Positions 11,182 through 46,461 of a stretch of 64,000 bases of DNA are shown here, piece by piece; the stretch's first letter is position 1, and every line of letters starts with the position of its first letter. Location of the stretch: NCBI GenBank assembly GCA_963281255.1, contig OY725489.1:5766523-5830522 (forward strand), read 5' to 3'. The DNA is from Aphrocallistes beatrix. Lineage: Eukaryota; Porifera; Hexactinellida; Sceptrulophora; Aphrocallistidae. A program made the translations under genes and the position numbers. The notes under the pieces are model-generated. The model saw only the letters and a program-made list of their open reading frames with translations, was not told where the DNA came from and made no database searches.

Positions 11182-12944
11182 GGTCTGTTGCGTGAGATTT
11201 CCACACCCGTGAGATTCTTACATTCAATTAGGAATAATATACAAGTAGTATTAGCGATACTATGATCGATATATATACATGAATGGTCCATTTTTGTATA
11301 ACGAAAATCTACATTGAAGCATTACAAACAGAACACAAACCAAACCAAACAAAGACAGAACAGACTAAAGTAGCAGATCAAAGCTCGTAAGATGTTAACT
11401 GAAGAATACGAAGCGATCTCGAACTTCCTTATTCAAGATGTATATCCCACATCTGTTCTCGAATCAAAGAAGAAGACGTGTCAGGTAAAGAGGAACTTTC
11501 GGGTCAAAGCCTCACAATATGTAGTCGGGAAAGATGATAAACTTTTCAAGGTAAATGCAATTTTGTTCTAACATTTTATCATTACTTTTATTTCTCAGCT
11601 ATCTAGAACAAGTAATAAGTTATAGAAATAAAGTGTATTATCACCTGTATTATTATCACCATCACGATGTATTATCACCTGACTTTGATAATCAAGTATG
11701 CTATTTGAATTTACATGAAGCCAAATTAGTTACTCAATACCACTTGTTCAACATTGTGATAAATGCCTTTCATTCAAGTCATCCCTTATTACAAAAATAG
11801 TTTCCCATTCACGCAATCATGTAATCGTAACTATCAAATAATTCCTGACAAATATCTCGCAACTTGAAGATGACTTTTGGAATCGGTAAACATCTTGTTA
11901 TTGCATTCCATTACTAATTATATCGTATGTCTTCTTTAGGTCAAAACTTGTCATGGCTGTCAAACTGAAGCTGCACTACCACCGCAACCTCAAAGAAAAC
12001 TGCATCCAATCCCTCCCCCAGATCAACCCTGGAAACATATTGGTATTGACCTTGTTTGCGATTTACAAGGTAACAAAGAAGGGTATAAACATCTCCTGGT
12101 AACAACATGTTACCTCAGTAAATTCTCTGCAGTCCGCCCTTTGAAAACAAAAACAAGTAGAGAAGTTTTGACACAGCTGGAGAGTATTTATTTTACTCTA
12201 GGAGTACCTCAGGTTATCCAGCATGATCAAGGTCCTGAGTTTGTTAGCAAGGTATGTGGCTCTTTGCAAGGAAAACTAATTCCAAAAAGTATTTTTTAAT
12301 TGTAAAGTTAAATTAATATATATCATTAGGAGTTTCAAGAATTTCACAGGAAATTGGGAGCTGATAATCGCAAGACAACTGCTTACCATCCAGAGAGTAA
12401 TGGTCTCGTCGAAGCACATAATAAAATAATTAAAACCAAGCTCCATAAAATGGTAAAAGAAACAGGAGAAGAATGGCCGAGCAAATTACAAGCTGCTGTC
12501 CTGGCTGCAAATACTTGTTGGAAGAGATCAACAGATTACTCACCATTTACCTGATGTATGGCAGAGAAGCTAACTGTATTGAACTATTTTCTCATACTAA
12601 TATACGTGTTGAAATTAAGATATTGAGGATCTAAACCAGTGGTTCTCAACCGGGGGTGCGAGGGACTATTCTAAGGGGTGCGAGAAAGTATAGCCACTTG
12701 ATTAATATTTACTGAGTATTAACACATTTGCTCCATTTTGCCTATTCAATGAAGTGCATTGTTTAGCTTTAGCACATTCTATTGTATTCTTGGAATTGCT
12801 TTTTCAAAATCATATAATGTGTAATCAATTCATTTTATTGAAAGGCGTAATGACGCATGGACTTTTAAACTACCTGGACAGTCCACTCTATTTTGACTCT
12901 ATACCAAGTTAGGCCAGTTTGTATCCTTACTATTAAAACTCGAT

Positions 12945-12948
<4 letters not shown>

Positions 12949-13006
<58 letters not shown>
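12949..13006 (+). repeat. (CT)n(AT)n compound microsatellite
   Basis: CT repeats to about 12,976, then AT repeats. It is the insertion site of the adjoining Helitron-like copy, as seen for other members that sit in AT runs. Confidence 0.9.
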
Positions 13007-13011
<5 letters not shown>

Positions 13012-13464
13012 TGATTTTTGGCATGTCGGAGTCTTTTGGCTATTGCTCCACTAGGTTCTGAGCTCAGAGCAAAATGTCGACTCATCATGGAATTATGACG
13101 TCATTGTCACATTTTTAAAAGTTAAGCAACACAGTTATTCGAGCATAACTCAGTCATTATAGGAGATAGAAGGCTGGAATTTTAATAGAATCTGTATACT
13201 AACATACCTCACATATGATGCAACTATCATCAAAAAATGATGACTCATCACTCTGTTATAATATCATCATTACGCATCAAAATTTTTTAAATTGACAAAT
13301 TTTGTGATTTCTCGAGTGATATATATTTTAACACTAAGATAGACATATGTAGAGATGTTATCTCCCTTATAATTAAAAAAGGTGATCCCAGACGACCGAA
13401 AGGAGCCTGGGGCGGACACAAAGTGTCCACCAACCGCGCAGCGCAAGCAAGCGAAGCGCGCTTG
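13007..13464 (+). mobile_element. Helitron-like family A copy, 5'-trimmed
   Basis: Starts within the family at AAAGCTGATTTTTGGCATGT (the first about 40 bp are missing) and ends with the hairpin GCGCAGCGCAAGCAAGCGAA and terminal CTTG before TATA. Internal landmarks: TGACTCATCACTCTGTTATA, TTATCTCCCTTATAATTA, GGCGGACACAAAGTGTCC. Non-coding; the minus-strand frame at 13,270-13,491 is a repeat-borne shadow. Confidence 0.8.
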
Positions 13465-13599
13465 TATATTGATATCTCGAAAACTATTCATTATATTTGT
13501 AGCAGTTATATGGTGTATCTGTAGTATGACCTATATGGTAAAACTATCTTCCTAGTAGTCATTCTGCCTAAACACAACCTAGGAAGGGATGTCAATGAC

Positions 13600-13870
13600 A
13601 TTACCATATATGAAATTGTGTGAAAACCGCAAAACTAAAAAACCATAAATATTTCAAGTATGCAGATGTGACCAATGAAATCCCCATAAACGATTTGCTA
13701 TTCAACATTAATATATTCACTACCAATATAATGAATAGTTTTTTCAACCTCTCAGAATTGTATTTCATCATTATCATTGAATTCGCCATCGTTTCAAACC
13801 TAGATATACGTAATTTCATTCTGATTGAACAAGTGTATTGGTTGTTATGGTAATGCATATTAGCATGCTC
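13600..13870. repeat. Dispersed repeat C, copy
   Basis: The block with GTGTGAAAACCGCAAAACTA, AATATTTCAAGTATGCAGA and GACCAATGAAATC recurs (both orientations) at 18,600-18,870, 19,505-19,640 and, more diverged, 53,720-54,060. The opposed frames at 13,601-13,906 and 13,620-13,853 are not conserved as proteins among copies. Confidence 0.65.
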
Positions 13871-15718
13871 TGGATAATTCGGAATTTCTGTTGTGTGAAT
13901 TATCAAAATTGATCAATTTTCATTGTTTTATTTTTAGCACTTGGAACTTCGAAAGCTGAATTCTTTTAATGCATACTGAAACATTTATATTTCAAGTATC
14001 AAATTTAAACCTTGAAAGCCATTGTTTTGTCTGGTTTCTGATGTGACAACTTAAAAATAAGAGTCTTTCGGCGTCTACAGCATATTTTGTTCTGAAACTT
14101 ATTGTGGCGTTTCGTTGCGTGAACTCTCATTGGTTTTTAAATGTAGGTTATAATAGTACTTTCAAAAAGAATAATAGTTTAGACCCGCCGGAGGGCGCCC
14201 AAAGTATCAAACTTTCATTTGAATGTATGTAACTTTATCGCGAAGACCTTGCCAGAAAAATGTCATTTTCTCTCAATACAAGATATATATTTTTACCACT
14301 GATGTGTAATAACGATTTTATCCTCAATGTCTATAGAAAATCTATGAAACCTAACAAGAAAAACAACTCTTCTGTACCTCCCGACCAAGAAATTATATTT
14401 ATGCGCAATAACCCATAAAAAATAATTGAGATATATGAGAAATTTTACCAAAAAATAAAAGGGTCATTATATTTCGATTAAGATACTATTAGAATGTAGG
14501 TATACTAAATGTGTGCTTGTGATTCATAATAAAATGCTTCTATTACCTCTAGTTACTGAATTTTAAAGCTTTAAACTATAATTTTTTGATTATGACGTCA
14601 TAACTTTTTAATGAGATAAGCTAGATTATTCTTTTCTGCAGAAATCGTTTTCTTGGGGTTGATATCCTATAGGTTAATAATACATTATGTATCTCTATCT
14701 TGCATAGTTTTCCTACTTCCATTTCACCCCCCAAAAATGCCCACTGTGCCATGAATGACGCCACCTTTATTAAAAAGGGGTGCCAGAGTTGATTTCGAAA
14801 GCTGAAGGGGTGCGGGATTCTAAAAAGGTTAAGAAACACTGATCTAAACAATATGCAAATTCTAACCAATCCAGATGAAGGAGCTGACACATTCTCCCAC
14901 AACTCCGAAAATCCTGATGAATGGATATGCCCACTAATGGAAGCTCGGTCTATATCACGGACAAATGCTCATGCTAACATCTTGAAAGAGCAATTAAAGC
15001 AGAAACATGTATTTGATAGTAAAGTGAAGAAAAACAGGTAATTTTGCATTAATAGAAGGTAATTGTAGCTGTTTTAATGGGATCTCTTTCAACAGTTCGA
15101 AAATCAATCAAGGAGATCCAATTCTTTTTCGGAATATACGAAAAGCCAAGAAAATGCCAGGAACTAAGACAGAACCTAAATATATTGGGCCTGTTATTGC
15201 AACTGAAGTGACGGATAGTCATGCACTAGTTGTTAAGGAAGGCAGTGACTCTAAAAGCAGAAAAATTCCGCTTCACCTCGCTAGGCCCTACTTTCCACGG
15301 TCAGAAGCCAAACTGACAAAGCGTAAAAACAGTGATCTCCCAACCAACGTTCAAACAAAGAAATACAAGGTAATATAATTATTTTATCATGTACTGACAA
15401 TAATTTTAATAGCCTTACTCCAACATTTAATTGCATTGAAAAACATCAGGATATCCAAACAATTAATTGAGCCTCCTAAACCACTAATATAATGAACTTT
15501 GACCCGATCGATCTTTCCTCCCTCATTTACTGGCTGAACTAAGTAACACTAAACACCAGACATCTCAAGTGAATTGCGGGAGGCAACGCAACTGAAGAGT
15601 CCAAGCCGGGACGAAACACATATTTAAACAGAAGACAAGTGAGTTTTTAAGAAATTCAACTTCTAAATTAACTGTCTGGGTGAGTATTCGCAAAGTGTCT
15701 AAAATATCTCTGTTGCTA

Positions 15719-15849
15719 AGTTGACTAATTCATTAAAAAATGATAAATAATTATGAATTATTCAAATAATGATATTTTCTTGTAAAGAAATCCATTTTGA
15801 ATAATTCTTCTCAGGAATTATTCATTATTTCGTGAATTAGTCAACTTAG
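15719..15849. mobile_element. Short palindromic MITE
   Basis: CTAAGTTGACTAATTCA at the left is inverted as TGAATTAGTCAACTTAG at the right, and the arms continue as AT-rich complementary sequence (AATTATTCAAA/TTTGAATAATT). Lies in the 3' untranslated part of Ginger 1. No clear target duplication. Confidence 0.65.
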
Positions 15850-16081
15850 GACTCTGTTGTGGTATCTAAATGTTTATTATATGCTATCAAGACGATAATC
15901 CAAACATAAAAAATAATTTGAGTAAAAAGATTTTTCTATCAAATGCATTTGAATTTGTTTTCAATTTCTAAATTTTTTAATATCTGTAAATTTTAGGGTA
16001 TTTTCTAGCATAGTAATAGACAATTAGATACCACAATTTGTATTTGTCTGTAATGTTGAATCGACCCTACTCTCGCTACTA

Positions 16082-16228
16082 CAGTAGACTCCGCTTAATA
16101 GGACCACATCGGTCAGAGGACATTTTGGATCAATTAACTAGAGAACCCTATTAAACATAAATATTTTGTATTAGCTATGTAGTATTCCAGTCCTGCCAAA
16201 AGGTTGCCCTATTAAGCGGAGTCAACTG
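16082..16228. mobile_element. pogo/Tigger-like MITE, 147 bp
   Basis: Ends CAGTAGACTCCGCTTAATAG and, inverted, CAGTTGACTCCGCTTAATAG, with TA on both sides (16,080-81 and 16,229-30). Related copies at 35,104 and 48,511 share ACATCGGTCAGAGGACATTTT. Non-coding. Confidence 0.85.
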
Positions 16229-16243
16229 TATTTATCATCAGTA

Positions 16244-16347
16244 CACTCGACCTACGGTACACTCGACCTGCGGTACACTCGACTGAGGGTACACTCGACC
16301 TGCGGTACACTCGACTGACGGTACACTCGACTGGCGGTACACTCGAC
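16244..16347 (+). repeat. Minisatellite, GGTACACTCGACC units
   Basis: Seven or so units of 13-17 bp sharing GGTACACTCGAC with a variable spacer (CTGC, TGAGG, TGACG, TGGC). A related array lies at the same side of the gene in Ginger 2 (42,895-43,112, read on the minus strand). Confidence 0.85.
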
Positions 16348-16919
16348 TATTGAAATACTAATCTTCCCAAAGTATTCGTACATCCTAATATTTTCCATAC
16401 AAATAATAACAATAAGTTAAGTATTTTTAGCAAATCTATACTAGTGGTGAGTGACAAACTTTTTAATTTGTCTTAAATTCATTCTCTAACTATTCAATTG
16501 CTATACTTCCTAAAAGCACTGCTTATAATTATCTATATGGAAATATTATTGTGTATTAATATTTTTGGCAGGACAGTAGCTATGCAACCATTGGTAATAA
16601 ACTCGATTTTGTCTGGAGAGAGCATAATTATTGTGTGTAGGAATGCCAATTCAAGCCAATCTATCATATTTAGATAATCGATCGCTCCATTTAGTTTTTC
16701 GAAAACAGGCACTTAATCAGGCTATTCTAGAAATGAATGAATATAATTCAAACGAAAAATGACTTTTTTTAACTGTCGACAATAGTAATTCTCTTTCATG
16801 GTAAAATTTCGAGCGTTAGAAATTAGTGATTCTATAAAATTTGAGTGGATTGGATTGGCATCCCAAACGGAGCGGGATAACTTGTTTAGACGAGGCGACG
16901 ATCACTTTTATACGTTACT

Positions 16920-17353
16920 ACATATTCGCATCGCAACCCTTATAAACAATTATCGTTGGAGTGGAACAGGATGGCTAGTGGGGGAGAAGCAAGGCCGTAG
17001 GAGCAAGTGTGGTAGGTGCGGTGGCTGTCGCACAAATATTTTTGTCCACCGCACCAGAATGGGAATTCATGCTCTCATCCCGACTAATTTCAATTCTGGA
17101 AACGCCACTTAGCCACACCAATAAATATTTGCTAACCACAGCCTTGGAGGAGGAGGCCATCATTTTCAATTAAATTACTATTTACTCGCATCGCACTCCT
17201 TGTAAATCTATCGCTGGAGAGGAACGGGATGGCTAGTGGGGGAGGAGGAGGCCATCACAATTATACCAAATCACTGTTTACTCGCATCGCACTCCTTGTA
17301 AATCTATTCACTGGAGAGGAACGGGATAGCTAGTGGGGGAGGAGGAGGCCATC
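16920..17353 (+). repeat. Tandem repeat of about 80-95 bp, three units
   Basis: Units contain ACTCGCATCGCACTCCTTGT, CTGGAGAGGAACGGGAT and GGCTAGTGGGGGAGGAGGAG; the second (about 17,180) and third (about 17,275) are close copies and the first (about 16,920) is diverged. The 104-codon frame at 16,798-17,112 overlaps the first unit and has no recognised motif. Confidence 0.6.
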
Positions 17354-17638
17354 ACATCTAAAATTAAGCACTAATTGGTGAATGCACACTGCTCTGTAAA
17401 CCTAAGTCTGAAGAAACCGAGATGTACATGTACAGAAGAATAATGCACAGAGACTTTTAGTAATATTTATCTATACTTTCGTAATGTTTGAATGTTACTT
17501 TTATTCGAACTAAATTATTATTTATATTTTAGTCATCAATTCTAGACATTTGGCTATTAGTTCTTAAAGAAATTAGCGTTACATGCCTTGGAAGTAGACA
17601 ATGTTAGCATCATTTTTAAGGGCAGAGTCATTGTATAC

Positions 17639-18021
17639 AGACTTTTCGTGACGATACATTTCGTAATGGACATTTCGTGACAAGATGGGTACACTTATAT
17701 TCTATAATTGTTGTGGTAAGGCGAAGTCATGATAATTATCTGTGAAGATAAAATACATATTGCACCTACATTATCAGTGTCATATAAATTAGTGAGAGAC
17801 AATTGGAAATTTTGTGCATTCTTTCTGGGATACAGACTTTTCGTATATCACTATTTTATCTTCACAGATAATTATCATGACTTCGCCTTACCACAACAAT
17901 TATAGAATATAGGTGTACCCATCTTGTCACGAAATGTCCCTGTCACGAAAAGTCTTGTCAAGAAATGTCCGTCACGAAATGTCTCGTCACGAAAAGTCCT
18001 GTCACGAAAAGTCTGTATCCC
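17639..18021. mobile_element. Foldback element with direct sub-repeats
   Basis: The arm with AGATGGGTACACTTATATTC, TTGTGGTAAGGCGAAGTCAT and AATTATCTGTGAAGATAAAA is repeated inverted at about 17,850-17,930. The right side adds short direct repeats GTCACGAAATGTCC/GTCACGAAAAGTC ending GTCTGTATCCC. A central GGGATACAGACTTTTCGT suggests a second end or a nested copy. No target duplication resolved. Confidence 0.65.
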
Positions 18022-18589
18022 ATTCATGGCTGCATGTTTAAAATTTAAGATTTATAAACAAACTTTAATCCAGATTCATCAACAAGGACATCACCAAACA
18101 TGAAGCTAAAAATAAATATTAGTTGAAACACTTGAAACCATAATATCAAAGGAATGAGAACATAATTATATGGTGACTCTTGATCTCAGGATATCATATA
18201 GAAGAGAGACGCAATTGGTATCAAAACAAACATCTTAAATCTACTGTGAATAGGAACATAGTATTTTCGTGAATAATTTAAGCTATGGTAAAGAGGAAGG
18301 CATTGTTAATGAAACAGTTGCGAACATCATTCAATGTCAGGAAATAGAGAGTATTGAATATTATTAGCATTGCCTAAGTTTTATTTGAGTGTGGGGGATG
18401 TAAATCTACGAAGATATTCCTGCATTATCAATTGAAGAGTGTAAGAATCTCACGCTACTATAATTTCCCTGGTTTACTAATATAAGGGTGTAAGAATCTC
18501 ACGGGTGTGGAAATCTCACGCAACAGGTCTCATACTCGGGTCTTGTAACTTGAGTCTATGGCCTATCACTATAACTAGTCGTTATTTCG

Positions 18590-18870
18590 ATGAGAAATGT
18601 ATTATTGTTGAATAGGAAGTTGCATATGGTGAATTCATTGGTCACATTGGAATACTTGAAATATTTGTGGTTCTTGAGTTTTGCGGTTTTCACACCTTTC
18701 CATATATGGTAATAATGTTGATAACTTGGAATTGGTTAGCGTTAGACATGGGAAATGTATTATTTATTGAATAGGAAGTCATTTATAAAGAATCAATTGA
18801 GCATATCGACTTATCCTAAATGCGCCTAGTTTTTTTTATTTTTGCGGTTTTCACACCTCCATATATGGTC
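18590..18870. repeat. Dispersed repeat C, two tandem copies
   Basis: Two successive blocks contain TTGCGGTTTTCACACCT followed by CCATATATGGT and preceded by GTATTATTGTTGAATAGGAA or a variant. They match 19,505-19,640 inverted. Non-coding. Confidence 0.65.
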
Positions 18871-19504
18871 ATATTATAGAATTCTTTAGAGAAGGACTGA
18901 AGCCTCCCATGCTCGGGGTTTGTAATTTGAGTCTGAAGGATTAACTGGAGTCCTGGGCTAAAATGACTTCTAGAAGGGCTAGAGACACGATCTCGGGTCC
19001 ATATAGGAGATTTTGAGGACGGCGAGTTCAATAGCGCAATTTTCAATACTGCCTGGTGTCATCTTAAAGGTCCAAAGGTCATATTTCAAGGTTAAATGGG
19101 TGAATTTTGCTAGTGTTTGCCCATTTTATCTGTCTAACTAATAAACGGTGAGATATGACTGATTGTAATGAGACGCAGTAGTGTATATGAGCCCAAATTT
19201 GATATTTATTGTCCTACATATAATTACATAAACATTATATGTATATCACAACACTGTCTATTACAACGTTGTATATGCTACCATTAGTTGGAGAGCTTGG
19301 CTTGCCTCCTGGGACATCCCAAAGACTATTCTTTTTCACTTCCATTGAGGACATGAGCTTTCAATAGAATGTTAGCTAAAGTAGTACATGCCGCCTTACT
19401 ACCTGCTAAAGGTACATCTACAAAGGATAATAGCTCAGCAAAATGAAAGCGGCAACGCATTTTAGCCTGGTCATGCAAATTATAGGCATTGTGTACAAAA
19501 AAAG

Positions 19505-19640
19505 ACATTATGTACAAAAAAGGTGTGAAAACCGCAAAACTCAAGAACCACACATATTTCAAGTACAACGTGACCAATGAATTCACCATATGCGACTCTT
19601 CCTATTCAACAATAATACATTTCTCACCGAAATAACGACT
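19505..19640. repeat. Dispersed repeat C, inverted copy
   Basis: GGTGTGAAAACCGCAAAACT and CTCAAGAACCACACATATTT mirror 18,640-18,720. With the following segment it forms the repeat unit into which Ginger 1 inserted elsewhere. Confidence 0.65.
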
Positions 19641-19725
19641 ATAGTGATAGGCAATAGACTCAAGTTACAGGACCCGAGTATGAGACCCTCCAGTCCTTAG
19701 TTAAAGGAGTCTATGGTTAAAAATG
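19641..19725 (-). repeat. Paralogous empty site of Ginger element 1
   Basis: On the minus strand this segment reads GACTGGAGGGTCTCATACTC, exactly what remains if Ginger 1 and one GGTC are removed from 11,171-18,540. Sequence further out on both sides also matches (CTCCTTTAACTAAGGACTGG and GTAACTTGAGTCTAT). Confidence 0.85.
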
Positions 19726-20424
19726 GCATATGTAGCACACAGCGGCACTAATTAATAATTTGAAAACTTTGGGAATGAATAGATTAGAAATCTTCTTCTA
19801 AGACTAATTTTAGCACTATTGGTATGTAAATAATCAATTGTTCAAATAATGTTTTGGTTAGTGTATATACTTATTACCTCTTTATAGCCAGCTATATTAG
19901 TTAACTCGATAAATTACAATTTCGAATAAATATCTAATGTATTTGGAAAGACAGAAGTTATATTGATGGATAATTGGACAGCTTGCAATCGAGATACTAA
20001 TTCTCGATAAATTACTGGTAGGGCTAATGCCCTGCCAACCCTACCGGAGCCTACGCCTTTATGTGTATTACAATTTTAATCAAGGGGGTCACTTATGTAA
20101 TCTGACTCGGGCCCCGAATGCGATTTGACATGAGGCCACTCCTGCTCTCGACGGCCCTGGCTGTGTAGCCATGACCCGACCGACCTGTCAAAACGACCCT
20201 TCGTTCAAATATGTTTCTCTTTTACACACAAATTTATCGATAACCTGTGAATAATTATCTTAGCATTAACATTGCCATACTACAAGTAATACATATACTG
20301 CTGCAACTATGGATCAATGCATATTCCTAAATGTCAAAATAACGACTTGCGACTTGATCAAAGGTAAGTAGTACATACATATAGTAATTATGTCAAAAAA
20401 ATAGTTCATTTTAGAAAAATAATA
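19726..20424. other. Spacer, no gene seen
   Basis: AT-rich. GC-rich patches at about 20,015-20,055 and 20,105-20,195 look like ends of an unidentified repeat, but no inverted pair was confirmed. Confidence 0.35.
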
Positions 20425-20432
20425 TCCTACAG

Positions 20433-20612
20433 CAGGCGTGTCAAACTGGTGTCCCGCAGGTTGCTCAGAGGTGGCCCGCCATCCAGTTGCAAAAAAATAT
20501 TATAATTGAATGAATCAGTAATTAAAATTTATTCATTTCTATCATGGCCCTGGGAAGAGCTGAGGATAATTATGAAATTGGCCCGCTATCCGATTCGAGT
20601 TTGACACACCTG
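20433..20612. mobile_element. hAT-type MITE, 180 bp
   Basis: Ends CAGGCGTGTCAAACTGG and, inverted, CAGGTGTGTCAAACTCG. Perfect 8-bp duplication TCCTACAG at 20,425-20,432 and 20,613-20,620. Internal TGGCCCGCCATCC and GGCCCGCTATCC fit the common hAT terminal theme. Non-coding. Confidence 0.92.
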
Positions 20613-20624
20613 TCCTACAGGTTA

Positions 20625-20950
20625 GGGAAAATTTTCTAATAGAATTTGAAATACATGATCCACCAACGCTTAAGAACATGTTGAAGAGAAATTAAATAGA
20701 AAGATAAGATTAGGTAGTCAAAATGCATTCTATGTTTGACATGATCGTGGCGATGTGGAACGAGTAACAAATGTACATACTTGAAAATAGGTCAGTTAAC
20801 AAATGTCATATCTTAGGAATTAGAAGAGATTTCTAAATAAAATTTGAATCACATAATCGACCAACGCTTAAGAACATGTGGTAGAGATATCAGAGCGAAA
20901 TAATAAGGACAAAGTAGTTAAATTGCACATTATGTTCGACATGGTCGGGT
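20625..20950 (+). repeat. Tandem duplication of about 185 bp
   Basis: 20,630-20,755 and 20,815-20,945 share CCAACGCTTAAGAACATGT, AGTAGTTAAATTGCA/AGTCAAAATGCA and GACATGRTCG. Divergence of roughly 20 per cent. Non-coding. Confidence 0.6.
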
Positions 20951-21142
20951 TATTTCTTAATGGCTTAATGCTAAGTCATCATACATATTTTGACAAATCT
21001 GATGTCATAAAAATAATCAAAGTTTATACCTCTAGCTAAACGGGAAGTGGGTTAAATATGTGATTGAAGCGAACATGGTTTTTGAAATTGAATTCGCTGC
21101 CAACTTCTTACTCGTGAATGTGGGAGGGTATTTGTATATATA

Positions 21143-22010: not shown

Positions 22011-22029
22011 GGTTTTCCAACCAGCAAAT

Positions 22030-32321: not shown

Positions 32322-32383
32322 CTTGGAATCATCATTTTGGTTTGTAATCACTCTGTTAAATGTATTAAATTAATTCATACATA

Positions 32384-33734
32384 CAGTCTGTCACGTAATT
32401 ATTTACAAAATATCCTTATTTTATCCAGAACCACAATTAACTAATAACTAATAATAAATGGTTATTCTAATTGTTTTTATGCTCCATTCGACTCTCAAAT
32501 AGAAACTTTCCATTGATAATAGAAAAACCATCTTTAATTTTTGTTTACAAATCCAATTTAGAAGCTTATATTATTTTTTCGTTATTTTTCAGTTGAAAGT
32601 TAGACCAACCATTCTAGATCGAATAATAGCTTCTGAATGCAGCAGAGTAGAAGAGAAGAAGTTGCTAGATACATTTTATTCCGGAAACACACAGTTAGAA
32701 ACATTGCAGAAGCCTGCCAAGTTTCTTTGAAGTCAGTATATAATGTGCGGGCTAAGTTGAGAAACGGCGAATCTTTGAATCCCAAAAAAGGTGCTGGCAG
32801 AAAATGGAAACTCGATAGCTCAAATCGTATTTCTTTGGAAAAAAAGTTAAAGAACCATCCAAGGATATCTCTCCGAGCTTTAAAAAGCCAATTCAAGGTA
32901 GAAAAGGGGATAGACATTTCTCATGAGAGCATTAGAAAGACGGCCAAAAAAATTGGATATTCCAAAAAGACCGCTATCAGAGGTCCATGGATAAGTCAAG
33001 CAAATGAGATCTAACGTGTTGCATGGGCTCACAAATACTTGAATATCATGTGGAGTAAGATTATTTTTAGCGATGAATGCTCTATATGGCTACAGAGTAG
33101 CAAAATTCAGGTGTGGACAAAGGGACAAAAACCAGTGATTAATATCCCAGGACACACTCCTAAACTCCACATATGGGGGGGAATTTCAGCTCGAGGAGCG
33201 ACTCCTATTAAAGTTTTTCGCCATAATTTCAACTCAGTACACTACTGTAACGTGTTAAATGAAGTTTTATTGGAAACAGCCAACGTCCTGTATCCTAATG
33301 GGTAGCGACTTCAGGAAGATAATTCCAGTATCCATAAATCAAAACGTCCGAAAGTTACAAAAAGTCTTTGAACATCCGTACAATAGAATGGCCACCAAAT
33401 AGTCCCGATCTCAACCCAATTGAAAATCTATGGGCAATACTAATGAAGAGGATACAAAACAAGTGTCCTAAAGACATAAAAGAGCTTGAATACCTAGTTT
33501 AGGAGGAGTGGGAAAACTTTGATCCACATTTTTTGGCCCACTTCGTACGCTCAATGAAGCGAAGGTGTCAATTAGTTATCTCTTCATCTGGGAAAAAGAT
33601 TGATTATTAGTCACTATTTTGTTAGATGCATTTATTTGTACACTTTCATGTTTCCTTTCAATTAGAACCATGGAAAAATTCAATTCATCAAAGTAGAAAA
33701 GTTTGAAAATTGTAAATAATTTCGTGACAGAATG
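32384..33734 (+). mobile_element. Tc1-like element, 1.35 kb
   Basis: Left end CAGTCTGTCACGTAATTATT; the right end, inverted from 33,734, reads CATTCTGTCACGAAATTATT. TA at 32,382-83 and 33,735-36. One transposase frame between. Confidence 0.88.
32637..33610 (+). pseudogene. Tc1-like transposase, broken
   Basis: N-terminal helix-turn-helix (NIAEACQVSLKSVYNVRAKL), GRKWKLD linker and second DNA-binding helix (ISLRALKSQFKVEKGIDISH). Catalytic domain: IIFSDECSIW (D1), EDNSSIHKSK (D2) and DLNPIENLW (E), a DDE triad with Tc1-like spacing, ending ISSSGKKIDY-stop at 33,610. Defects: stops at 33,012-33,014, about 33,303-33,305 and about 33,498-33,500, and a frameshift near 33,372. The length of about 320 codons is normal for the family. 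The start is inferred from family alignment; the first codon is not ATG-certain. Confidence 0.85.
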
Positions 33735-33739
33735 TACTG

Positions 33740-34540: not shown

Positions 34541-34547
34541 TAGTATA

Positions 34548-35040: not shown

Positions 35041-35103
35041 TATATATACTTGTATATACATATATGGTGTACTATTTACAATATTCGGGTTTTAATAGTG
35101 AGA

Positions 35104-35294: not shown

Positions 35295-35309
35295 ACATAT
35301 ATATATATA

Positions 35310-35798: not shown

Positions 35799-35802
35799 CA
35801 AG

Positions 35803-36140: not shown

Positions 36141-36335
36141 GTTTTGAATAATTCAATAATTCCACACCTCTTTTACCCCATTGGGATTTAAATTTCAGAA
36201 TCTGGGTATTTTGTGTAATTAAGTGAGATTTTTGCAGGAAAGTGTCATTATCCTTACTATTAAAACTCGATTAATGTATATTTATTTATTACCTTTTCGG
36301 CATCGAACTCCAATAGTTATGGAGGAAAAATCCAT

Positions 36336-36614
36336 CTAAACCTTCCCAAATTCGGAAAACAAAGAATAGAGTCGTAATGATGTATGTGGTGCTCTTCTAA
36401 TTTGTTGTGCCACACTATTTGCAATCATTGGAAATAATCTAGACGGTCTACCACTGCCTACTTTCCTTTCGCAAGATAAAATTTTCTTCAAGCGTGACAA
36501 AACGTCATAAACAGTCGATAAAGATACGCCCACAATACGTGAAATTTCTTTAGCTGAATGCTTTTTACCATCTAAACGTATCATCACGTGTTTACGCTTC
36601 TCAAATTCTGACAT
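36336..36614 (-). pseudogene. Tc1/mariner-type helix-turn-helix fragment
   Basis: The frame opens MSEFEKRKHVMIRLDGKKHS, followed by AKEISRIVGVSLSTVYDVLS, a clear DNA-binding helix-turn-helix, and KVGSGRPSRL, the GRPR-like hinge. Nothing catalytic follows in about 200 bp. It may belong with the fragment at 35,803-36,140 or be separate. Confidence 0.6.
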
Positions 36615-36899
36615 CCCGATTGAAATAAGATAGTCAGTAAGCAGAAAAATATAGATTACTGAATATGTTCAATAAATAGGTGCAAAAATAATTTATGATG
36701 ACGTAATCGCATTTAAAGAGCAAATATTTTGGAAAATAAACTTTAAAATGTTTGCTAAAATGATGCTTAGAATGAAGACTACTCTTTACACGCATATTCG
36801 AAGAGAGAATTAACCAATATCACTATCTTTGATAAAAGGAATATTATGGCTGTATATAAATCGAAATTCCAGATTTTTCTGAGACAGATTGTATATATA

Positions 36900-39881
36900 T
36901 GTTGCAGGCGAAATTCGTTTCGTCTGAAATATTACGCGAAACGCGTTTCGCCTAGGCGATGGGCGTTTTAATACAATCATGGGTAGCTAATATATGATTA
37001 TTCATGAAATGATACGAGATTGAATCTATTTTCGAATTAAAACAACAAACTGACTTATATCATGTTTCATTTCTTTATTTATTCACCATATATTAACCGA
37101 ATTACTGTATATTAACACCGAAGAAGGCCGGCAAATTGAAGGGGGATTTTTGAAGATTTCTCGTGAAATTACGGTACTCTTTAGCATGAATTGGACTAAT
37201 TCTGCTTTAATAACGCTACGAGCTGGTTTCCTCCTTTTTGTGATATAATGATGAGCGTAATCATTGCAACTCAAAGTCCGAATGGAATGTGAACTATAAA
37301 AACCTCAAAAATAAAAAGAAATTAAGCTATTATAAGTATGACTATGTTGGGAAAGAGTAAATAAATGTATAAATGTCATTATCAACCTCGACGAAACTGC
37401 TTGTTTCCATTACTCAGTTGTAATTTATTTATTATGGCAGGTAAGTGCTTTGTGGCATTTCGAACTGCAAGTTCTCTTTGACTGTTTACATTTACACTTT
37501 TTTGAAATTCATCCTCCTGTGCAGTTGCAGAACTGTTTGTATTTGCCCATAGACGAATGAAGGATGGCTTCACGCAAAGTCACGAATTTATTGGGCACTT
37601 CTTGCTGTGTAAGGAAGAGTAAGAGACAGTTCAAATTGGCCACCAGTATACTGGTTCTCCAATTTACTTGCGGCAGTCCCGATCTGATAAAAGCCCTCAT
37701 CGATCAGTACGATTCAAGACAACTCCAGGCAGATTTTGGGGTTCGAAGGGAGATCGTTTGTCGACTTGAGGAATTGACAACAGTACGTTTTCCCCAATAT
37801 CAATTATTTTTGATCTTTTCATTGACTGCTGATGAATCCTATTTATTTGTTGATCTTGGCCTCGTTTGGCTGCTCTTCGACCTTCCTGAAGTGTTATTGA
37901 TCTCTCCTCCAGCCAACATGATACACACCAAACTGGACATCCATATCCCTCCATGCCTTCAACTGGATGTCCACAAATTGCATGAATGGAACAATGGCAG
38001 CCTGGACAACGATGAACATCAGTACAGGGTGCTTCACAAACGATACACTTGAATCCGCCTGCTATTGTTGATGGAAAAGTTGATTCAATCGGTGAAATCA
38101 AGGAAGAATATTCTGAACCCGATGGAATATTATGGCTAATCAGCACATATTTTCTCATCCCCAAAGAGGGATCGTTTGGGGGAGTGGGATGGATTTGACT
38201 TGACTCGAAGATAGGAGAATTTTGAGAGCTTTCTAGAATTTGCTCAAAAGAACTGCAAGGTCTGTCCATGTTAAGACATGGCTTGATAAATGAGTTGAAA
38301 TGATTTTCACCTATGTCTCTCATGTAGGAATCAAAATAACATTCAGTCGAGATGTTGAGACCAGCTGAGATGCTCTGATTTATCTCCGTGTTATTGTAAT
38401 GCTCACCACCAGTGTCTGTTAGCTGAGAATCATTATTGGGTGATAATACAAGTTCAGAAAAGTCTTCATCGAATTCATTAGCCTGCTCATGTACACTAGA
38501 GGAAATGTAACATGATTTAGTAGATTAAGCTTGATGGTAAAGTAGGATTAAAATCAAGAAATATATAGTCTTAGGAGAATGTCTGGGTTTGTTTGCAATC
38601 TCAATTACTTATTGGCAGTAGTAAAGTAGTTCGTCGGTAGGCGACGAAATACTTTTGCGTAGCCTGGCCATAACTTTCTTATCATGCTGGCAAGATTAAT
38701 GTTCTTAAATTCGCGACCATTGTCACTCTGTAAGATATGAGAGGGACCAATCAGACCAAAAAAATTCATACACAATTCTCGAAACTTCTTCGGCAGTTTT
38801 TGTTCTTAGTGGACGAAGAATTATGAATTAGTTAGGTGGTCCTGGTATACTAAAGGAATTTGTATGGCAAATTTACTTCATTGAGAATCAATGAGATCTA
38901 CTTGACTACGAGATGCAAAATATTGACTACGTATGGGATGTATAACAATATTCTTCAAAGATTTTCTGCTCTTCTGAAGTTGGTATTCTTGACAAGAGTT
39001 AACGAATGATAAAAACATATCCCTGGAAAATCCTGTGTATTGAGTTTTCAATTCTGTAAAGAGTCGATCTCTCCCAAGATGTCTACCTCCGTCCGAGTGA
39101 ACTCAGTAAAATAAATCAAAAATATCCTCTTTAGCAACAATTCGCAAAGGATTTGGTAAATGGAATTCATTGAAGTACTTAGTATCATGAAACTCCTTGA
39201 TAATATATTTCTATTTCAGCCTATAGTACCTTTGCCGTTCTGCCCCTCGACTGGACGGACATGGTTGAGAGAGGACTTTGATAAAGTCTGAAATTTTCTC
39301 TTTAGTTAAAAGAGATGAACATGTATGATGCCCATCAAGGGATAAATAAAATTGCAGCTTTTAGTTTAGCATTCTAAGTTTTTGAACTGTGAATTGTTTT
39401 GTTGTGTTCTTGGAATTAGTATTTTTTACACACAATGAAGAAACCCTAATTTGTTTCGATAGGCATATTCCAATGATTGACATTACAATATGTTAAAGGA
39501 TGAAGCATGATGAAGATTATTTAACAAAACAGCTGTCAAAAATGTGTACTCCTATTCTAAACAGCCGTTAATTAATTAATTTACATTCTAAACTCTGTGT
39601 TTCCCACCTTCTAAATTCTACTAACATGCATTTGAATATTATATTTTAAAATATATTTTTCGTTTTTCTTCGGTTAATATACAGTAATTCGGTTAATATA
39701 TAGTGAATAAATAAAGAAATGAAACATTATATACTAAGTCAGTTTGTTGTGTTTATTCGAAAATAGATTCAATCTCGTGACATTTCCTAAATAATCATAT
39801 ATTAGCTACCCATGATTGTATTGAAACGCCCACCGCCTAGGCGAAATGCGTTTCGCGTTGAAACCCATTCCGACTGCAACA
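36900..39881 (-). mobile_element. Ginger-type DNA transposon 3 (2.98 kb)
   Basis: Both ends begin TGTTGCAG (at 36,900, and inverted from 39,881). The arms can be followed inward for about 215 bp through AAACGCGTTTCGCC, GGCGTTTTAATACAATCATG and ATTCACTATATATTAACCGA equivalents. TATA flanks each side, compatible with a 4-bp duplication but uninformative in the AT run. The gene inside is on the minus strand. Confidence 0.85.
37425..39370 (-). pseudogene. KRBA2-like Ginger integrase, decayed, with zinc-rich C-terminus
   Basis: Pieces in order on the minus strand: LTKEKISDFIKVLSQ, AERQRYYRLK, VHSDGGRHLGRDRLFTELK (HHCC finger start), SFVNSCQEYQLQKSRK, FASRSQVDLIDSQ (first catalytic D), SHILQSDNGREFKN (second D), then beyond the catalytic core a long ORF (37,697-38,323). 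This ORF has a zinc module CIVCEAPC, CPGCHCSIHAICG and GCPVWCVSC, and a tail IIDIGENVLLSIPQVD. A cysteine-rich end follows (CKCKQSKRTCSSKCHKALTC) to the stop at 37,425. Stops and shifts occur throughout the integrase; the catalytic-E region and GPY part were not located. Degenerate but clearly one gene. Confidence 0.75.
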
Positions 39882-39891
39882 TATATATATA

Positions 39892-40105
39892 CAAGCGGGC
39901 TTCGCTTGCATGCGCTGGCGAACACTTTGTGTCCGCCAGAGGAGTCCTTTGGGCGCCTGGGGTCACATTGAGTAATTATAAGGGAAATAACATCTCTAAA
40001 TACGTCTGTCCTACTGTTATAATCGATAACGCACGAAAAATCCCCAAATTTATCAATTTTTAAAAATTTGATGAGTAATGATGACGTCATAAAAAGTGAT
40101 GATAT
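39892..40105 (-). repeat. Helitron-like family A, truncated copy
   Basis: The 3' hairpin end (AAGCGGGCTTCGCTTG) directly follows the AT run at the right end of Ginger 3; similarity stops near AATGATGACGTCATAA. About half of the family length is present. Confidence 0.75.
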
Positions 40106-40109
40106 TCTG

Positions 40110-40554
40110 ATATATATATATATATATATCAGGCTATTATATAGCCTTCCAGAGAAACGCTCCTAATCCAAAATTTCTAAATTTTCATACGCCTAAATCG
40201 CTAAATAACATTACAATATTAGCTAAATTGGGTGTTTTTCTGAATTTTTACGCTCCTAAACACATTGCGGCTTAAAACCATACGCCAAAAAGAGCGTCTC
40301 GCGCTCCTAGATAATCCCCTGATATATATATATTCAAATTTACATTAATCCTTTATACGTTATATATGATTAATTAAGCATTTTAAGTGACCCCACTCAC
40401 AAATACGTATGACTATTAATTGTCAAGACATATTTTATCTTTGCAATTATCTTTATTCTGGAAAACAAATAGGACATAATATAGATATTAAGCTCATAAA
40501 TACAAAATAAACATTGGATTTCGAGAAGTACTAGAAATCATGGATTTTGATCAG
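40110..40554. other. AT-rich spacer with (TA)n and possible palindromic MITE
   Basis: ATCTGATATATA...TATATCAGG runs at about 40,108-40,132 and CTGATATATATA at about 40,319 bracket a segment with TTATACGCC-like motifs. Ends are not certain. No gene. Confidence 0.4.
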
Positions 40555-40860
40555 AATTTGAGTGGGATTTTGATCTGCGGCCGTATTCAGTAAGAACTTA
40601 AGATCGATCTTAAGATCGGTCTTAAGTTCTTAGTGAATACGGCCGCAGAAAACAGAAATTTACATTCTGATCAAATTCCATCAACTTTGGAGGAATTTGA
40701 TCAGAAAAATGGGATTGTAATCAGAAAAGTGGGATTTTGATCAGAAATGTCGGATTATGATCAGAAATTGTGTGGATTATGATCAGAAATGTCGGATTAT
40801 GATCAGAAATGTCGGATTATGATCAGAAACTGTGTGGATTATGAGCAGAACTTGTTTCTA
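40555..40860 (+). repeat. Tandem repeat of about 20 bp, GATTATGATCAGAAATGTCG
   Basis: Roughly ten units with the core GGATTATGATCAGAAA or GGGATTTTGATCAGAA; the first are diverged, the last six more regular. A 74-bp palindrome is inserted at 40,575. Confidence 0.8.
40575..40648. mobile_element. Near-perfect 74-bp palindrome
   Basis: CTGCGGCCGTATTCA at the left is inverted as TGAATACGGCCGCAG at the right, with AAGAACTTAAGATCG/CGGTCTTAAGTTCTT between. It interrupts the tandem array, so it probably arrived as a very short MITE. Confidence 0.75.
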
Positions 40861-41786
40861 GGAATAGTATTATACACATGCAGAAAATATCAAGTTTCTC
40901 CCATTTATCAATTCTTCAATCAATTCTGAACAACACAAAAAACCCGCAAAAAACAAAAAACAAATCATTGCTCTATAATATATAATAGGAGAGTCTCCAA
41001 CCCTTTATGCCTTGAGGGCGACATCATTAAATAAAAGTTTCATCGAGGGCCTCAACTTCCTCGATATGTATGCGAGATATTACGCTATAAGGCTATTTAC
41101 TTTATTGGATTCAGAAAATTGATAAAATACTCCGAGGGCCGGAAAGAATCCTTTATAAGGAGGGTATGAAACAAAAAAATAAAATGTCGGCCGACAGACC
41201 GATAGTGCAGCTCCGGGGCGAGAGAAATGTACATGAAATAAAAATGAGTGCTGAGATTAATCAGTAGCAATGATTGATTTTTTATTCGAAATTGATTTAT
41301 GAAAAAAGTGTGAAAATATATACATAAATATAGTATATACACATGCATATGCCCAGTGAATTGTTCACAATTCGGATTCTATGATGTAAGAATTGAATAC
41401 TACATGTGAATTACCCTACAATAGTCATTGAGATCTTATTTCTAGCATAAAATTGAATTTTAACTAAAATGTGTGAAAATATGAATATATAGATATACTA
41501 AAACCCGCAAAAAATGAAATTTCGAAAAAAGCCGGTGAGGTGCACATCTACACCATATAGAGATATAGTATGCCAAATTTGAAGTTAATCCGCCTGCTAG
41601 ATATCGCGAGCTGGCGCGTACGGACATACGTACGTACGTGTAGCACCATCCATGCCATTAGGGCATCTCCTTTTAGGAGCTGCACTAAAAACATTCTAAA
41701 CAACGAATTTCATTGTTTTATCAATAAACTTAAATTTCAAATGCTCGCATTGGTAGACAGGTAAATATTTCGAGGGCTTACTTAAG
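40861..41786. other. Spacer, no gene seen
   Basis: Short frames only; 41,525-41,700 resembles 24,080-24,190 (GGAGCTGCACTA). A TTAAGGATACCGCCC end related to repeat B is at about 41,787. Confidence 0.4.
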
Positions 41787-41845
41787 GATACCGCCCGTGA
41801 AACATCCATAGGTTTGGCTTACAGCATATTAGTCAGGTCAAAAAT

Positions 41846-42141
41846 AACCGACTACATTAAAATAAAAGAAACGTGAAACTGCCGACTAAAATGTGAAGCT
41901 GACGAATATATAGAAAATAATCGACAACATTAAAATAAAAGAAACGTGAAACTGCCGACGAAAATGTGAAGCTGACGAATATATTGAAAATAATCGACAA
42001 CATTAAAATAAAAGAAACGTGAAACTGCCGACGAATATATTGGAAATAACCGACTACATTAAAATAAAAGAAACGTGAAACTGCCGACTAAAATGTGAAG
42101 CTGCCGACTATATTGAAAATAACCGACTACATTAAAATAGT
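41846..42141 (+). repeat. Tandem repeat of about 80 bp
   Basis: Units contain ACATTAAAATAAAAGAAACG, TGAAACTGCCGAC and AAAATGTGAAGCTGACGAAT. About four units with small deletions. Confidence 0.8.
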
Positions 42142-42894
42142 GGGGGGGTGTCACACCCACCACACCCCCGTAGAACCGGTCCTGCCTTCAGTGGTCTCGA
42201 AATATACTATTTTGTTAGAAAAATTGTAATACAAGTAATATTGTAATATTGTAATATCAAAATTTTACTTAAAAGTAATATTCATGAATCTCCATCAAAA
42301 ACAATGAAATTAGTCTAAATATTTCGAAAATAAAGCAGATCGGCTAAACAATCCAAAATTTGTTTAACCGTTAACCGTGATTGACGGCGGTTAACCGGTT
42401 AACCGAATCCAGCCTTGCAGTTGGATTAATATTTCTCTTAGAAATATGACCCAGACCTATTTCATAGTTCTGTTTCATGGGATTTTGACCCGCACCAAAT
42501 AACATTGTAGACTATTAGCCGTGGGATTTTGACCCGCACCAAAATATTATCAGAATACTTTCGTCCGCGTATCATCAACTGGGTTGGATTGGCATCCCTA
42601 CTTACAGACATTCGCTCTCTTCAGACATGCCAATAGCATACATGCCAACCGTCCCGTTGTTTGCGGGACGTCCCGCTTTTTCACTCTTCTCCTGAGCTAA
42701 TTTTGATACGTGTCCAGTTTTTACATGAAATCTCCCCATTATGTCCCGTTTTTTTGGATTATGTGTATAATACTTTAATATTGCGTCCCGTCATGTCCCG
42801 CGAAATTCAACGCTGCGTCCCGCTTTTATCATGGCTCAGGTTGGCATGCATGTGATGTGTCAATGGTCGCATTGTTTTCGAATGTATCGCTAAT

Positions 42895-43112
42895 CGAGTG
42901 TACTGTCGATTGAGTGTTCCGTCAGTCGAGTGTTCCGGCAGTCGAGGGTACCGTTTTTTGAATGTGTGACAGTCGTATGCCGGCAGTCGAAAGTACGATA
43001 GCCGAATTTATGACAGTCAAATGTACGACCATCCAATTTAAGATAGTCGAATGTACCGAGAGTCGAGTGAACCGAAAGTCGAGTGAACCGAAAGTCGAGT
43101 GAACCGATCATT
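42895..43112 (-). repeat. Minisatellite, CGGTACACTCGACT-like units
   Basis: On the minus strand units such as CGGTTCACTCGACTTT and CGGTACATTCGACTAT repeat about 12 times, increasingly diverged. Same core and orientation relative to the gene as 16,244-16,347 in Ginger 1. The last codons of the Ginger 2 frame (RFTRLSVHSTFG) run into it. Confidence 0.8.
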
Positions 43113-46100
43113 GCATAGGTCCAAGGTACGTAGAAATTGAATGATATTACCCTCTGATCCGAAAAAGTCATAACATTTAACCAGCGACTGGTAGATAATT
43201 TTTAGTCCAATATGTGAAGCTATGTACTCTCGCAGTTCATCAAATTTCTTACTGGCGACAAGAGAATATATTTGATGGAATTTGCAGGTTGATGGTGTTG
43301 TTCCGATTATTTTCAGTGAATTAATGATTTTGTCCTGATTTAAACTTAGAAGTGCAACTATGTTGTCGACTGGGCAGGTGTTAAGTTGCAGGATGTTGTT
43401 GTATTCGCCCTCCCATTTAGGGAATGTTATAGATTGTAATGAGTCTTCAGTAGCGCTAGCGAGGTGTTCAGATGGTGATGATGGTGTTGATTCGATGGTA
43501 ATAATTTCTGGTTCTTTCGGGAAGATCAACTCAATCACTACAGGGAATAGAACTGCGAGAGGGTAATCGTAATCCCTTCTTTTCTCGAGTTGACTTTCGC
43601 TGGGATGGGAATTACGATATTCATTATACCATCGAGTGACAGTGATGGCAATGTATTCCTTAGTTATGTAATTGATGGTAGTTGATGGGTGGTGATCATA
43701 TAGTGTAGTGAGTGATGTTAGTGATTGAGCTTTAGTGGCAAGGGTTTCGTGAAGATCTGATAAGTAGGTGTTGTTGAGAAGTGATGTTAATACTTTGATG
43801 TCGTGAAATTTGTTGTATAGTCTTTCTCAATTCTGTCTCAGATAGTAGGTGTTCTTGGCTGTCAAATGTCTCTTCTGTCGCTCCCAAAGTTAAGGTATCC
43901 ATATCGTCATAGGATTCTAAGAATATAACCAATTTAACTTCAGACAAAGTAAATAACTTATCAATACTAATATTACTCACGAATAGAATTGATGGATGGC
44001 TCGAGTATTGCTTTGTTTACTGATGTCTCCGTATCCTAAAATAAAATTATCAAATTTGATTTTTAATAAAAATTACTAAAATTTCATTTTAATTAAAAAT
44101 TACTAAAATTTCACTTACTGCAGTGCGTTTATGATATATTCGAGAAAGGTGGATTGGTATCTTTGTTGTCTTTTTACTGTTGAGATCTGTATGTGCAATA
44201 ATATGGCTTGGTGTTACTCTATCTACTGAATATGGTCCAAGATATTTCTTTGCATTTTTGGTTCCGGGAAGATGTTTGGATTTTTTGATGTTGTGTACAA
44301 GTACTTGGTCTCCTTCCTCGAATTCCGACCAAAATTTAGCTACTTAGTTAAGTAAAGATTTTTGAGTCATGATGAATTGAATTTACGTCAACAGAAAATA
44401 TTTAAGTGTGAGATGAGAAGACATACGAATTGCAAAGCTTCTTTGAGAAAATATGCTCTGGTGATGTTATCATCATTGTCATTACTTTCTGTTATTGGAA
44501 CCAAACACTAAAAATAAGAATTACTCACCTATTACGTTTTAGTTTACGGTCAAAATTCCGTTTTTGAATCTTCTGTTCTTTTTTGATGTTGTCGATAGCA
44601 AACATTCTGTCAGTATCACGAGTTCATCTATTTCTTGCATCCACTCATCATCATTATTTAGTAACTCATAGGGATCTGCTTCGTCAATGGTCATTGAAAT
44701 GGTATCAAGTTGGGGGGATCCTGGATCAGAGGTACAACCGTCTTCATTTGGCTCAGAACGGTCGTCGTTATTTGATGATGAGGTAATCAAGTTGAGAAGG
44801 TTAGAGGAATCATAATCCCTTCCGAACATAAGATAGAATGGAGTGTACCCTGTAGAGCGTTTTTTCTGAGTGTTTGCTGACAAAACTGCCGGTTGTAGTT
44901 TTGATGTCCATTCTGTATCTGCATTACTCCTCAATTTGTAAATTTTACTATAATTCAAAGTTAATTAAATAAATAGAGAGTAACCAATAATATGAGGTGA
45001 GATAGATAAATAAGACTTACTTTTTGATAATTTTATTGTGCGCTTCAACAAGTCCATTACTTTGTGGATGGTAAGCAGTGGTTCTTCTAAGCTCAACATC
45101 AAGTTGTGAGTGGAAATCTTGAAATTCCTAAAACAATCAAAATATTCCTAAGTATGCCACCTGATACTTTCACATTTATTCAATGGCTTAATTGGGACGT
45201 TAGCTAAAAAAAAAAGGAGTGCACAGCTAATTTAGCTAATTTAGAGTTTCCACTACATTGAAGCTGGTGAATATCAAATAATGTCAATGTATACCAGACG
45301 TACTTAATTAAGATAGTAAAGAGGGTGTATTTTCTTGTTTATTCTTTAAATATGATACAATTAACTTTTAAATTAACTATATATGTATAAGTATCAGCGG
45401 GTGTACTTAACAAAAATATATGTTTATACCTTGCTAGAGAATTCTTTGCCTTGGTCGCTCTGGATAACTTTAGGAACTCCGAATGTAAGATAGATATCTT
45501 GTAAGCGATTCAATACCTCCCTGGATGTTTTAGTTTTGAGAGGGCGTGCGACTACAAATTTGCTCAGGTAGCAGACAATGACCAAAATATGCTGAAATCT
45601 GAAAGAATCTGGGGTCATATTGCAAATTAGATCAATTCCACAGTGATGCCAGGGGTTTTGTGGAGGTGGAATGGGTTGGAGTTCTCGTTGGGGCTGAGGT
45701 GGGAGTGCTGCATTAGAAATTTATTAGTGTTATTATAATTCATTGAATGGGAATTTCTTACATATTGTCGAACATCTTCGTGAATGCCGATCCAGTCGTA
45801 TTTGTTACGAATGCCATCAATGGTAGCATTGATACCAGTGTGAGTAGTATCATGGTAGAAACTGATGATATCATTGATTTCTGATAGTGGAATCTCAAGG
45901 TATTTCACGACTCCATTCTTCCTCACACTCTGAAATATGGACAGTAAAAACGAATGGATACATACGATTTGGATTATTAGTAAATAAACCACCTCCACAG
46001 ACAGTAAAATTGAAAAACATTGAAGCGGAAATATTGGTAGCCAAGATCCAATAATAGCAATGGTGAGGTAAAAGCTAGTTTGAATGCCGTCGTAATTTAT

Positions 46101-46260
46101 TCTACTTTACCTTTACAAGTTTGTTGTTTCGGAGATAATACTCTCTGCACCTTCTGACAAAATTCTTTTTCTCATATCGATCACTTGAATCCTTGATCTC
46201 CAGAGGAATGACATTAGTCAAGAGATAACTCTGAATCTGCTGGTACTCGTTCACGTTCAT
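43038..46260 (-). pseudogene. KRBA2-like Ginger integrase gene, spliced, lightly broken
   Basis: Exons with GT-AG borders: 46,260-46,111 (MNVNEYQQIQSYLLTN), 45,929 to 45,431, 45,127-45,021, 44,947-44,529, about 44,345-44,119, 44,035-43,981 and 3' exons to 43,038. Exon 2 has the zinc-finger His pair (YHDTTHTG), but the CxxC pair is lost (VRNSHSMN), and a shift near 45,710. Integrase core: WHHCGIDLICNM (D1), VIQSDQGKEF (D2), SNGLVEAHNKIIKK (E); then TPFYLMFGRD and the EEGDQVLVHN / IPIHLSRIYHK region. A shift near 44,610 occurs in the coil after the core. The last exons carry an acidic Ser-rich region and NTCPVDNIVALLSLNQDKI, absent from Ginger 1. Exact 3' splicing is uncertain. Confidence 0.85.
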
Positions 46261-46461
46261 GATAGAGTCAATGTCAGTTCGAAGTAAATTCTTAAATAGA
46301 AGTTGAAAGAAATCTAAAAAAAGAGATAAAGTTAGGGTGAGAGTTTATGATATGAAGGTAATTATATAATAAATAGCAAGTTACCATGGACGAAATGTTA
46401 CTTAGTCTAAAATGAAAAAGCTATCGGTGGGTCAAAATCTCATGCAACAGTTCTGTCACTG

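Follow-up and report, generated by a model that had tools for sequence, protein, structure and literature searches.

The genome of the hexactinellid sponge Aphrocallistes beatrix (100.5 Mb in 28 contigs) contains, in a 64-kb stretch of contig OY725489.1 that is here called the window, three elements, E1, E2 and E3, and the question raised by this locus is what kind of transposon they represent and how their working relatives would move. The initial annotation had named all three as Ginger transposons with both ends readable and had taken them as a lineage-specific expansion of at least three families. Our reading, to which we give a probability of about 0.7, is that E1 and E3 are dead Ginger1-like copies and E2 a dead Ginger2-like copy, and that working relatives of E1 and E3 carry either an OTU or a USP-like protease, swapped one for the other, and insert into the target AGNNCT. 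For the more specific proposal that Ginger1-type elements recruited a third ubiquitin-type protease (USP-like), which swaps with OTU as a cassette in a clade with its own target AGNNCT, we see only slightly better than even odds.

The three elements came out with the same coordinates, ends and 4-bp flanks (GGTC, TATA and GTTC) as first annotated (Table 1), and terminal inverted repeats (TIRs), 4-bp duplications and integrase domains support a Ginger-type anatomy. A genome search found the ends of E1 at 27 places, those of E2 at 55 and E3-like ends at 85, while the same patterns written backwards gave 0 in each case, and the copies elsewhere had the same ends as those of the window. The integrase search gave at least 150 related matches, and the set used below is the best 150 scored of 689 candidates, a few of these 150 being parts of a single exon. 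The expansion of families was thus confirmed and reaches far beyond three, but the three of the window are not of one kind (E2 is Ginger2-like, E1 and E3 are Ginger1-like), and although all ends are present, the three copies are all defective rather than intact. The initial annotation also described the integrase genes as KRBA2-like, a putative likeness for which the Znf_SCAND3 of E2 is the one piece of support. Remnants of Gypsy-type long terminal repeat retrotransposons, or of Polintons, with a Ginger-like integrase might look similar, because the integrase core family (rve, H2C2) is common with Gypsy and retroviruses and all elements begin with TG and finish with CA. However, it is inverted and not direct terminal repeats that recur around the integrase-bearing elements, no reverse transcriptase or polymerase was found among the open reading frames (ORFs) scanned (some short frames were unscanned), and OTU or USP-like domains lie downstream of 74 of the 150 listed integrase matches, so we consider such an origin very improbable.

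The integrase cores of E1 and E3 are approximately 65% identical, and the intron place after ...DQG.EF.SK and the DD35E spacing are common to both; we take the two to represent two families within one large Ginger1-like clade. They are called Ginger1-like because the integrase core, intron, H2C2, DD35E and YPYY-like and GPY-like stretches (the last two judged by eye) are Ginger1 traits. A clear H2C2 is seen in E3 as well as in the full copies of either type; E1 of the window has lost it, and the full E1-type copy at C7:2996174 has it. According to PMC2836005 (Bao, Kapitonov and Jurka 2010), Ginger1 has TIRs of ~40-270 bp and TGTNR 5′ ends. E1 and E3 resemble it in 4-bp duplication, introns, H2C2 and rve and perhaps in their TIRs and in the YPYY-like and GPY-like stretches, to which E1-like families add a C-terminal OTU. 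The TIRs of E1 are perfect over 37 bp (11186-11222 and 18489-18525, a 38th pair falling outside the element), and those of E3 are short and imperfect (20 of 23 bases). Both ends of E1 and the right end of E3 read TGTTG and agree with TGTNR, but the left end of E3 departs with TGTTT. Gin-1/Gin-2 and Imagin (PMC2836005, PMC12863088) are derived from Ginger1 integrases and have introns, Imagin with a conserved YPYY, but they are single host genes without TIRs, unlike the many mobile-looking TIR copies here.

The full E1-type copy (C7:2996174-3003185) has an OTU domain (Pfam, 3.6e-8), and the full E3-type copy (C9:1173779-1180543, 6765 bp) ends in a 444-residue ORF. Five E3-type domains, including that of the query itself, are 98-100% alike and lie in stop-free 444-residue frames. 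The last 266 residues of the 444-residue ORF had 147 matches in the genome. An alignment of six members (29% to 53% identity with the first) showed NTC..DN, two CxxC pairs and HF to be invariant throughout. When a profile of seven members was compared with that of four human USPs, it scored 38.3 (local) and 30.7 (global), while 60 column-shuffled decoys reached at most 23.2 and 9.7, and the reversed profile 13.4 and 4.3. The order of the elements in this comparison (Cys box, two zinc CxxC pairs, strand, His box) is that of USPs (family C19), and the profile match is collinear over the zinc pairs, the strand and the His box; the E3-type domain differs in having NTC[SPN]..DN instead of NTC[FY][ML]N and HF instead of GHY. 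On this profile comparison, the domain is quite likely a remote USP homologue. It could instead be a cysteine domain of a different zinc-binding type that may not act as a protease, since Pfam gave only weak zinc ribbons (best 0.00022, under the cut-off) and no UCH match, and PDB sequence searches with it yielded chance hits only. We think this unlikely, because the collinear match beats all 60 decoys, the Cys and His are invariant, and the OTU ORF, used as an unrelated control, scores only 11.9. PMC2836005 lists only OTU, Ulp1 and PHD for Ginger1, and no USP-like domain in Ginger appeared in literature titles and abstract openings, from which full texts may differ.

Several USP-like matches were in long open frames (C3:5436684, 911 residues; C13:2800611, 813; C1:5148084, 653), which may be Ginger elements without introns or carriers of the domain of some other kind. 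A cluster of ordinary UCH (USP) genes at C17:3630818-3668145 accounts for 21 of the 76 genomic UCH match rows. A pattern search for relatives of the USP-like domain gave 44 hits in viral and 73 in prokaryotic contigs, none of which was confirmed.

To pair proteases with integrases, we used the 150 integrase, 147 USP-like and 148/149 OTU matches and counted a domain if it lay at most 6 kb downstream of the integrase match on the same strand. Among the best 150 of the 689 integrase candidates, a USP-like domain followed in 26, OTU in 48 and both in 0; as controls, upstream gave 1 and the opposite strand 0. Thus, the two types are mutually exclusive in the listed hits. Counted from the other side, 48 of 148 OTU and 31 of 147 USP-like matches had a listed integrase upstream. 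In the full E1-type and E3-type copies, the unrelated protease ORFs are directly followed by 127 bp of 91% identity, and the copies are collinear in noncoding DNA, with 92/96-bp repeats (~76%) and a 16-bp minisatellite (~70-79%); integrase segments in the same comparison are 68-82% identical. Because the two full copies share this noncoding DNA after their unrelated protease ORFs, the protease resembles a cassette that has been swapped, and a recombination-driven exchange of the protease exon would be the simplest reading of the alignments. Within the retrieved loci plus the window, a set made up mostly of Ginger loci, four entries had the 127-bp stretch, all with E1/E3-type copies, so it says little about the remaining genome. 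The similarity might also come from an ancient split of OTU and USP-type lineages, with the 3′ exon kept or replaced once and the noncoding repeats alike by descent. Common descent is certain from the ~65% identity of the integrase cores, tandem repeats can remain similar or spread independently, and the comparison has one full copy per type. But descent alone sits badly with 91% in the 127-bp stretch against 68-82% in the integrase segments, and with the confinement of that stretch to the four E1/E3-type entries, so we regard it as somewhat doubtful and favour the swap.

For the target site, we took 22 of the 27 places with E1 ends (five subterminal repeat units were left out) and 30 of the 85 with E3-like ends, those with loci. 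Of 19 TIR pairs, 16 had a perfect 4-bp duplication, and after the pair at C12:2542180 was left out as the copy of a segment, 15 independent duplications remained. GNNC was seen in 14 of them, mostly inside AGNNCT, with A preceding the duplication in 14 of 15 and T following in 12 of 15 (P 1.5e-20 against base composition). Single ends agreed, with GNNC in 12 of 13 (14, one duplicate left out), and in a pair of small elements, nested and bearing TGTTGCGTGGTATT ends, the duplications were GAAC and GTAC. This suggests that the E1/E3-type clade uses an undescribed target, AGNNCT. No GNNC target for Ginger was seen in literature titles and abstract openings, although full texts may differ. A single E1 end at C2:5557872 was excluded because its flank is shared (93-99% in pieces). 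At C1:26955-27915 (L003-L006), a small Ginger-like element with a TGTTGCGTGGTATTTTGAG end lies inside another, with the duplications GTAC and GAAC.

Several results weigh against the reading proposed above. As to the target, 3 of the 19 TIR pairs had no perfect duplication (GACC/GTAC, GTCC/CTAC and GTTA/GTTC), and one of the 15 perfect duplications was GTAT. The Ginger1 target CCGG/CCGT given in PMC2836005, from which GNNC within AGNNCT differs, was found in 0 of the 15; because the published rule rests on 112 hydra elements, its absence marks a variant, and the other Ginger1 features were weighed apart. As to the USP-like domain, the probability against the four human USPs was only 53% (local) and 64% (global), and that of six members against USP2 alone was 0.5%. 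No genomic UCH match (76 in all) was closer than 3 kb to a USP-like match (147), and the predicted fold of the half-domain in the window (43071-43427), all-helical at low confidence (pLDDT 51.6), was uninformative. The SUMO protease C98 (PF15499), tried as a candidate, had no match anywhere in the genome and was dropped. No protease of either type was in reach of 76 of the 150 listed integrase matches, and a listed integrase upstream was missing from 116 of the 147 USP-like matches, so other carriers are possible; the unpaired protease matches may be fragments, neighbours of lower-scoring integrases, or other genes. The evidence for exchange comes from a single full copy per type, and the two families are related regardless. 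In addition, the OTU ORF of the full E1-type copy reads DNGNSLFRC, with Ser where the catalytic Cys is expected, which speaks against OTU activity of that copy.

E1 gives the strongest proof of insertion among the three elements, because it sits in a palindromic host element. When its flanks were joined with one GGTC removed, the interrupted palindrome was restored, and the opposite arm matched it unbroken across the junction, with 189 identical columns (216 versus 197 nt) and two mismatches ahead of the first gap. The alignment scored 337 with one GGTC and 330 with both copies. The two exons of the integrase core, joined by hand, matched rve at 1.2e-10 (Pfam). Compared with the full E1-type copy, E1 is without the H2C2-holding stretches and without most of the OTU ORF, and it is a dead copy. 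Its insert we call hAT-like from the appearance of the ends. E1 ends were found inside the same palindrome at three places; the one at C12:2542180 is explained as a copied segment (99.8%), hence its exclusion from the target count. The window segment 9855-19419, with E1, the hAT-like insert and the palindromic host, is duplicated at C12 ~2541284-2550844, 99.8% identical in the compared parts, and no evident inverted repeats were seen at its borders.

E3 retains 3979 bp compared with the 6765 bp of the full E3-type copy and is also dead. Its rve match (1.4e-7) is 0.5 bit below the curated cut-off, and its core exon has two in-frame stops (genome match). Units of the GGTCCGGGGGACCAATTTTCC type form inverted repeats immediately beside the E3 end, at 46475-47479 of the window.

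E2 is a dead Ginger2-like copy whose integrase is scattered across short frames. Its TIRs are imperfect over ~215 bp (93% over 124 nt, 97% over 61 nt and 87% at the very ends). The TATA flank alone is weak proof because it is located within a TATATA run, and it gains weight only through relatives: among 14 TIR pairs of this type (13 genomic plus the window copy), 11 had a perfect duplication, with R before and Y after in 11 of 11 and TATA in 6. According to PMC2836005, Ginger2/Tdd has H2C2 and a DDE integrase without GPY/F and YPYY, and E2 resembles it in TGTTG ends, long TIRs, 4-bp duplication and the target RNNNNY, often TATA, as RTATAY; E2 differs in its decay and in a SCAND3-like zinc finger, which the consulted parts of that paper do not mention. 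With the core of E2 broken and its H2C2 weak, a lack of GPY/F and YPYY in so decayed a copy carries little weight. Some E2-type elements are hardly more than two element ends: L061 (C6:5129409-5129474) is a 66-bp perfect palindrome (66/66 self-complementary) with a TATA duplication, L063 is a tiny element of 66 bp (64/66 self-complementary), and L051 and L043 are 49 bp long, one of them flanked by a TGTG duplication, the other lacking a perfect one.

Table 1 Features of E1, E2 and E3 in the window (positions count from its first letter)
Feature	Position	Strand	Basis or remark
E1, Ginger1-like element, 7340 bp	11186..18525	+	TIRs and recurring ends
E1 target site duplication GGTC	left 11182..11185, right 18526-18529		flanks and restored empty site
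E1 frame, YPYY-like stretch	11374..11568	+	by eye; no Pfam match
E1 integrase core, two exons, DD35E	11940..12551	+	intron from just past 12251 (donor) to about 12330 (acceptor)
hAT-like insert in E1, 2205 bp, 8-bp duplication ATCTAAAC	12637..14841		
E1 frame, GPY-like stretch KYIGP	15028..15375	+	by eye; no Pfam match
Palindromic host element of E1	11154..19715		11154-11185 plus 18530-18713 versus 19519-19715
E2, Ginger2-like element, 2982 bp	36900..39881	-	TIRs and recurring ends
E2 duplication TATA	36896-36899 and 39882-39885		
E2 ORF, 275 amino acids, Znf_SCAND3	37697..38524	-	Pfam 2.8e-6
E2 frame with SDNGREF, probable fragment of broken catalytic core	38608..38805	-	by eye; no Pfam match
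E2 weak H2C2 zinc-binding stretch	38881..39102	-	Pfam 0.0087, under cut-off
E3, Ginger1-like element, 3979 bp, internally deleted	42471..46449	-	ends and flanks
E3 duplication GTTC, perfect	42467-42470 and 46450-46453		
E3 USP-like C-terminal domain, first 120 of 266 residues	43071..43427	-	remainder, including second CxxC and His box, deleted
E3 frame, GPY-like stretch KYLGPY	44092..44343	-	by eye; no Pfam match
E3 integrase core, two exons, DD35E	45020..45720 (45427-45720 and 45020-45127)	-	intron place same as E1
E3 ORF with H2C2 zinc-binding domain	45627..46106	-	Pfam 2.7e-10
E3 frame, YPYY-like stretch	46105..46344	-	by eye

Elsewhere in the window, we saw Tc1/mariner-like transposase pieces at 32637-33014 (Pfam HTH_Tnp_Tc3_2) and 62174-62997 (by eye), and an ORF on the minus strand at 59239-59736 with a terminal RING-like CVFC...CPSC stretch (by eye).

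Taken as a mechanism, the presumably spliced gene of a working E1/E3-type element would encode an integrase-type transposase with YPYY-like stretch, H2C2, DD35E core and GPY-like stretch. This transposase would bind the TGTTGC-type ends, and the repeated end units of the full copies (44 bp × 7.4 in the E3 type; 69 bp × 2.1 and 52 bp × 2.2 in the E1 type) may be additional binding sites. The element, if still mobile today, would move as DNA and be joined to target ends staggered by 4 bp, and GNNC duplications would result from its preference for AGNNCT. Towards its 3′ end, the gene would encode a cysteine protease of the ubiquitin type, which is OTU in E1-like families and USP-like (C19) in E3-like ones, with a USP fold and activity presumed for the latter. 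Such a protease might remove a tag of ubiquitin or a ubiquitin-like protein and in this way spare the transposase, or it might act on chromatin or repair factors; a similar role was proposed for OTU and Ulp1 by Bao, Kapitonov and Jurka 2010 (PMC2836005). The alternative cassettes suggest that tag removal helps transposition, and two protease types at one position fit a shared need.

According to PMC2836005, Ginger elements occupy a place intermediate between DNA transposons and Gypsy or retroviral integrases, and their mode of excision is unsolved. With a target of its own in an integrase closely related to the retroviral type, the E1/E3-type clade offers a natural pair for mapping target choice, and this genome, with at least 150 integrase matches and E3-type C-terminal domains that are 98-100% alike, would be a good source for such work. 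That one position holds deubiquitinase-type domains of different kinds, which show signs of having been exchanged within one genome, points to a shared requirement; if the proposal is true, then together with the reported OTU and Ulp1 forms, the stripping of ubiquitin or SUMO would be a general need of Ginger1 transposition.

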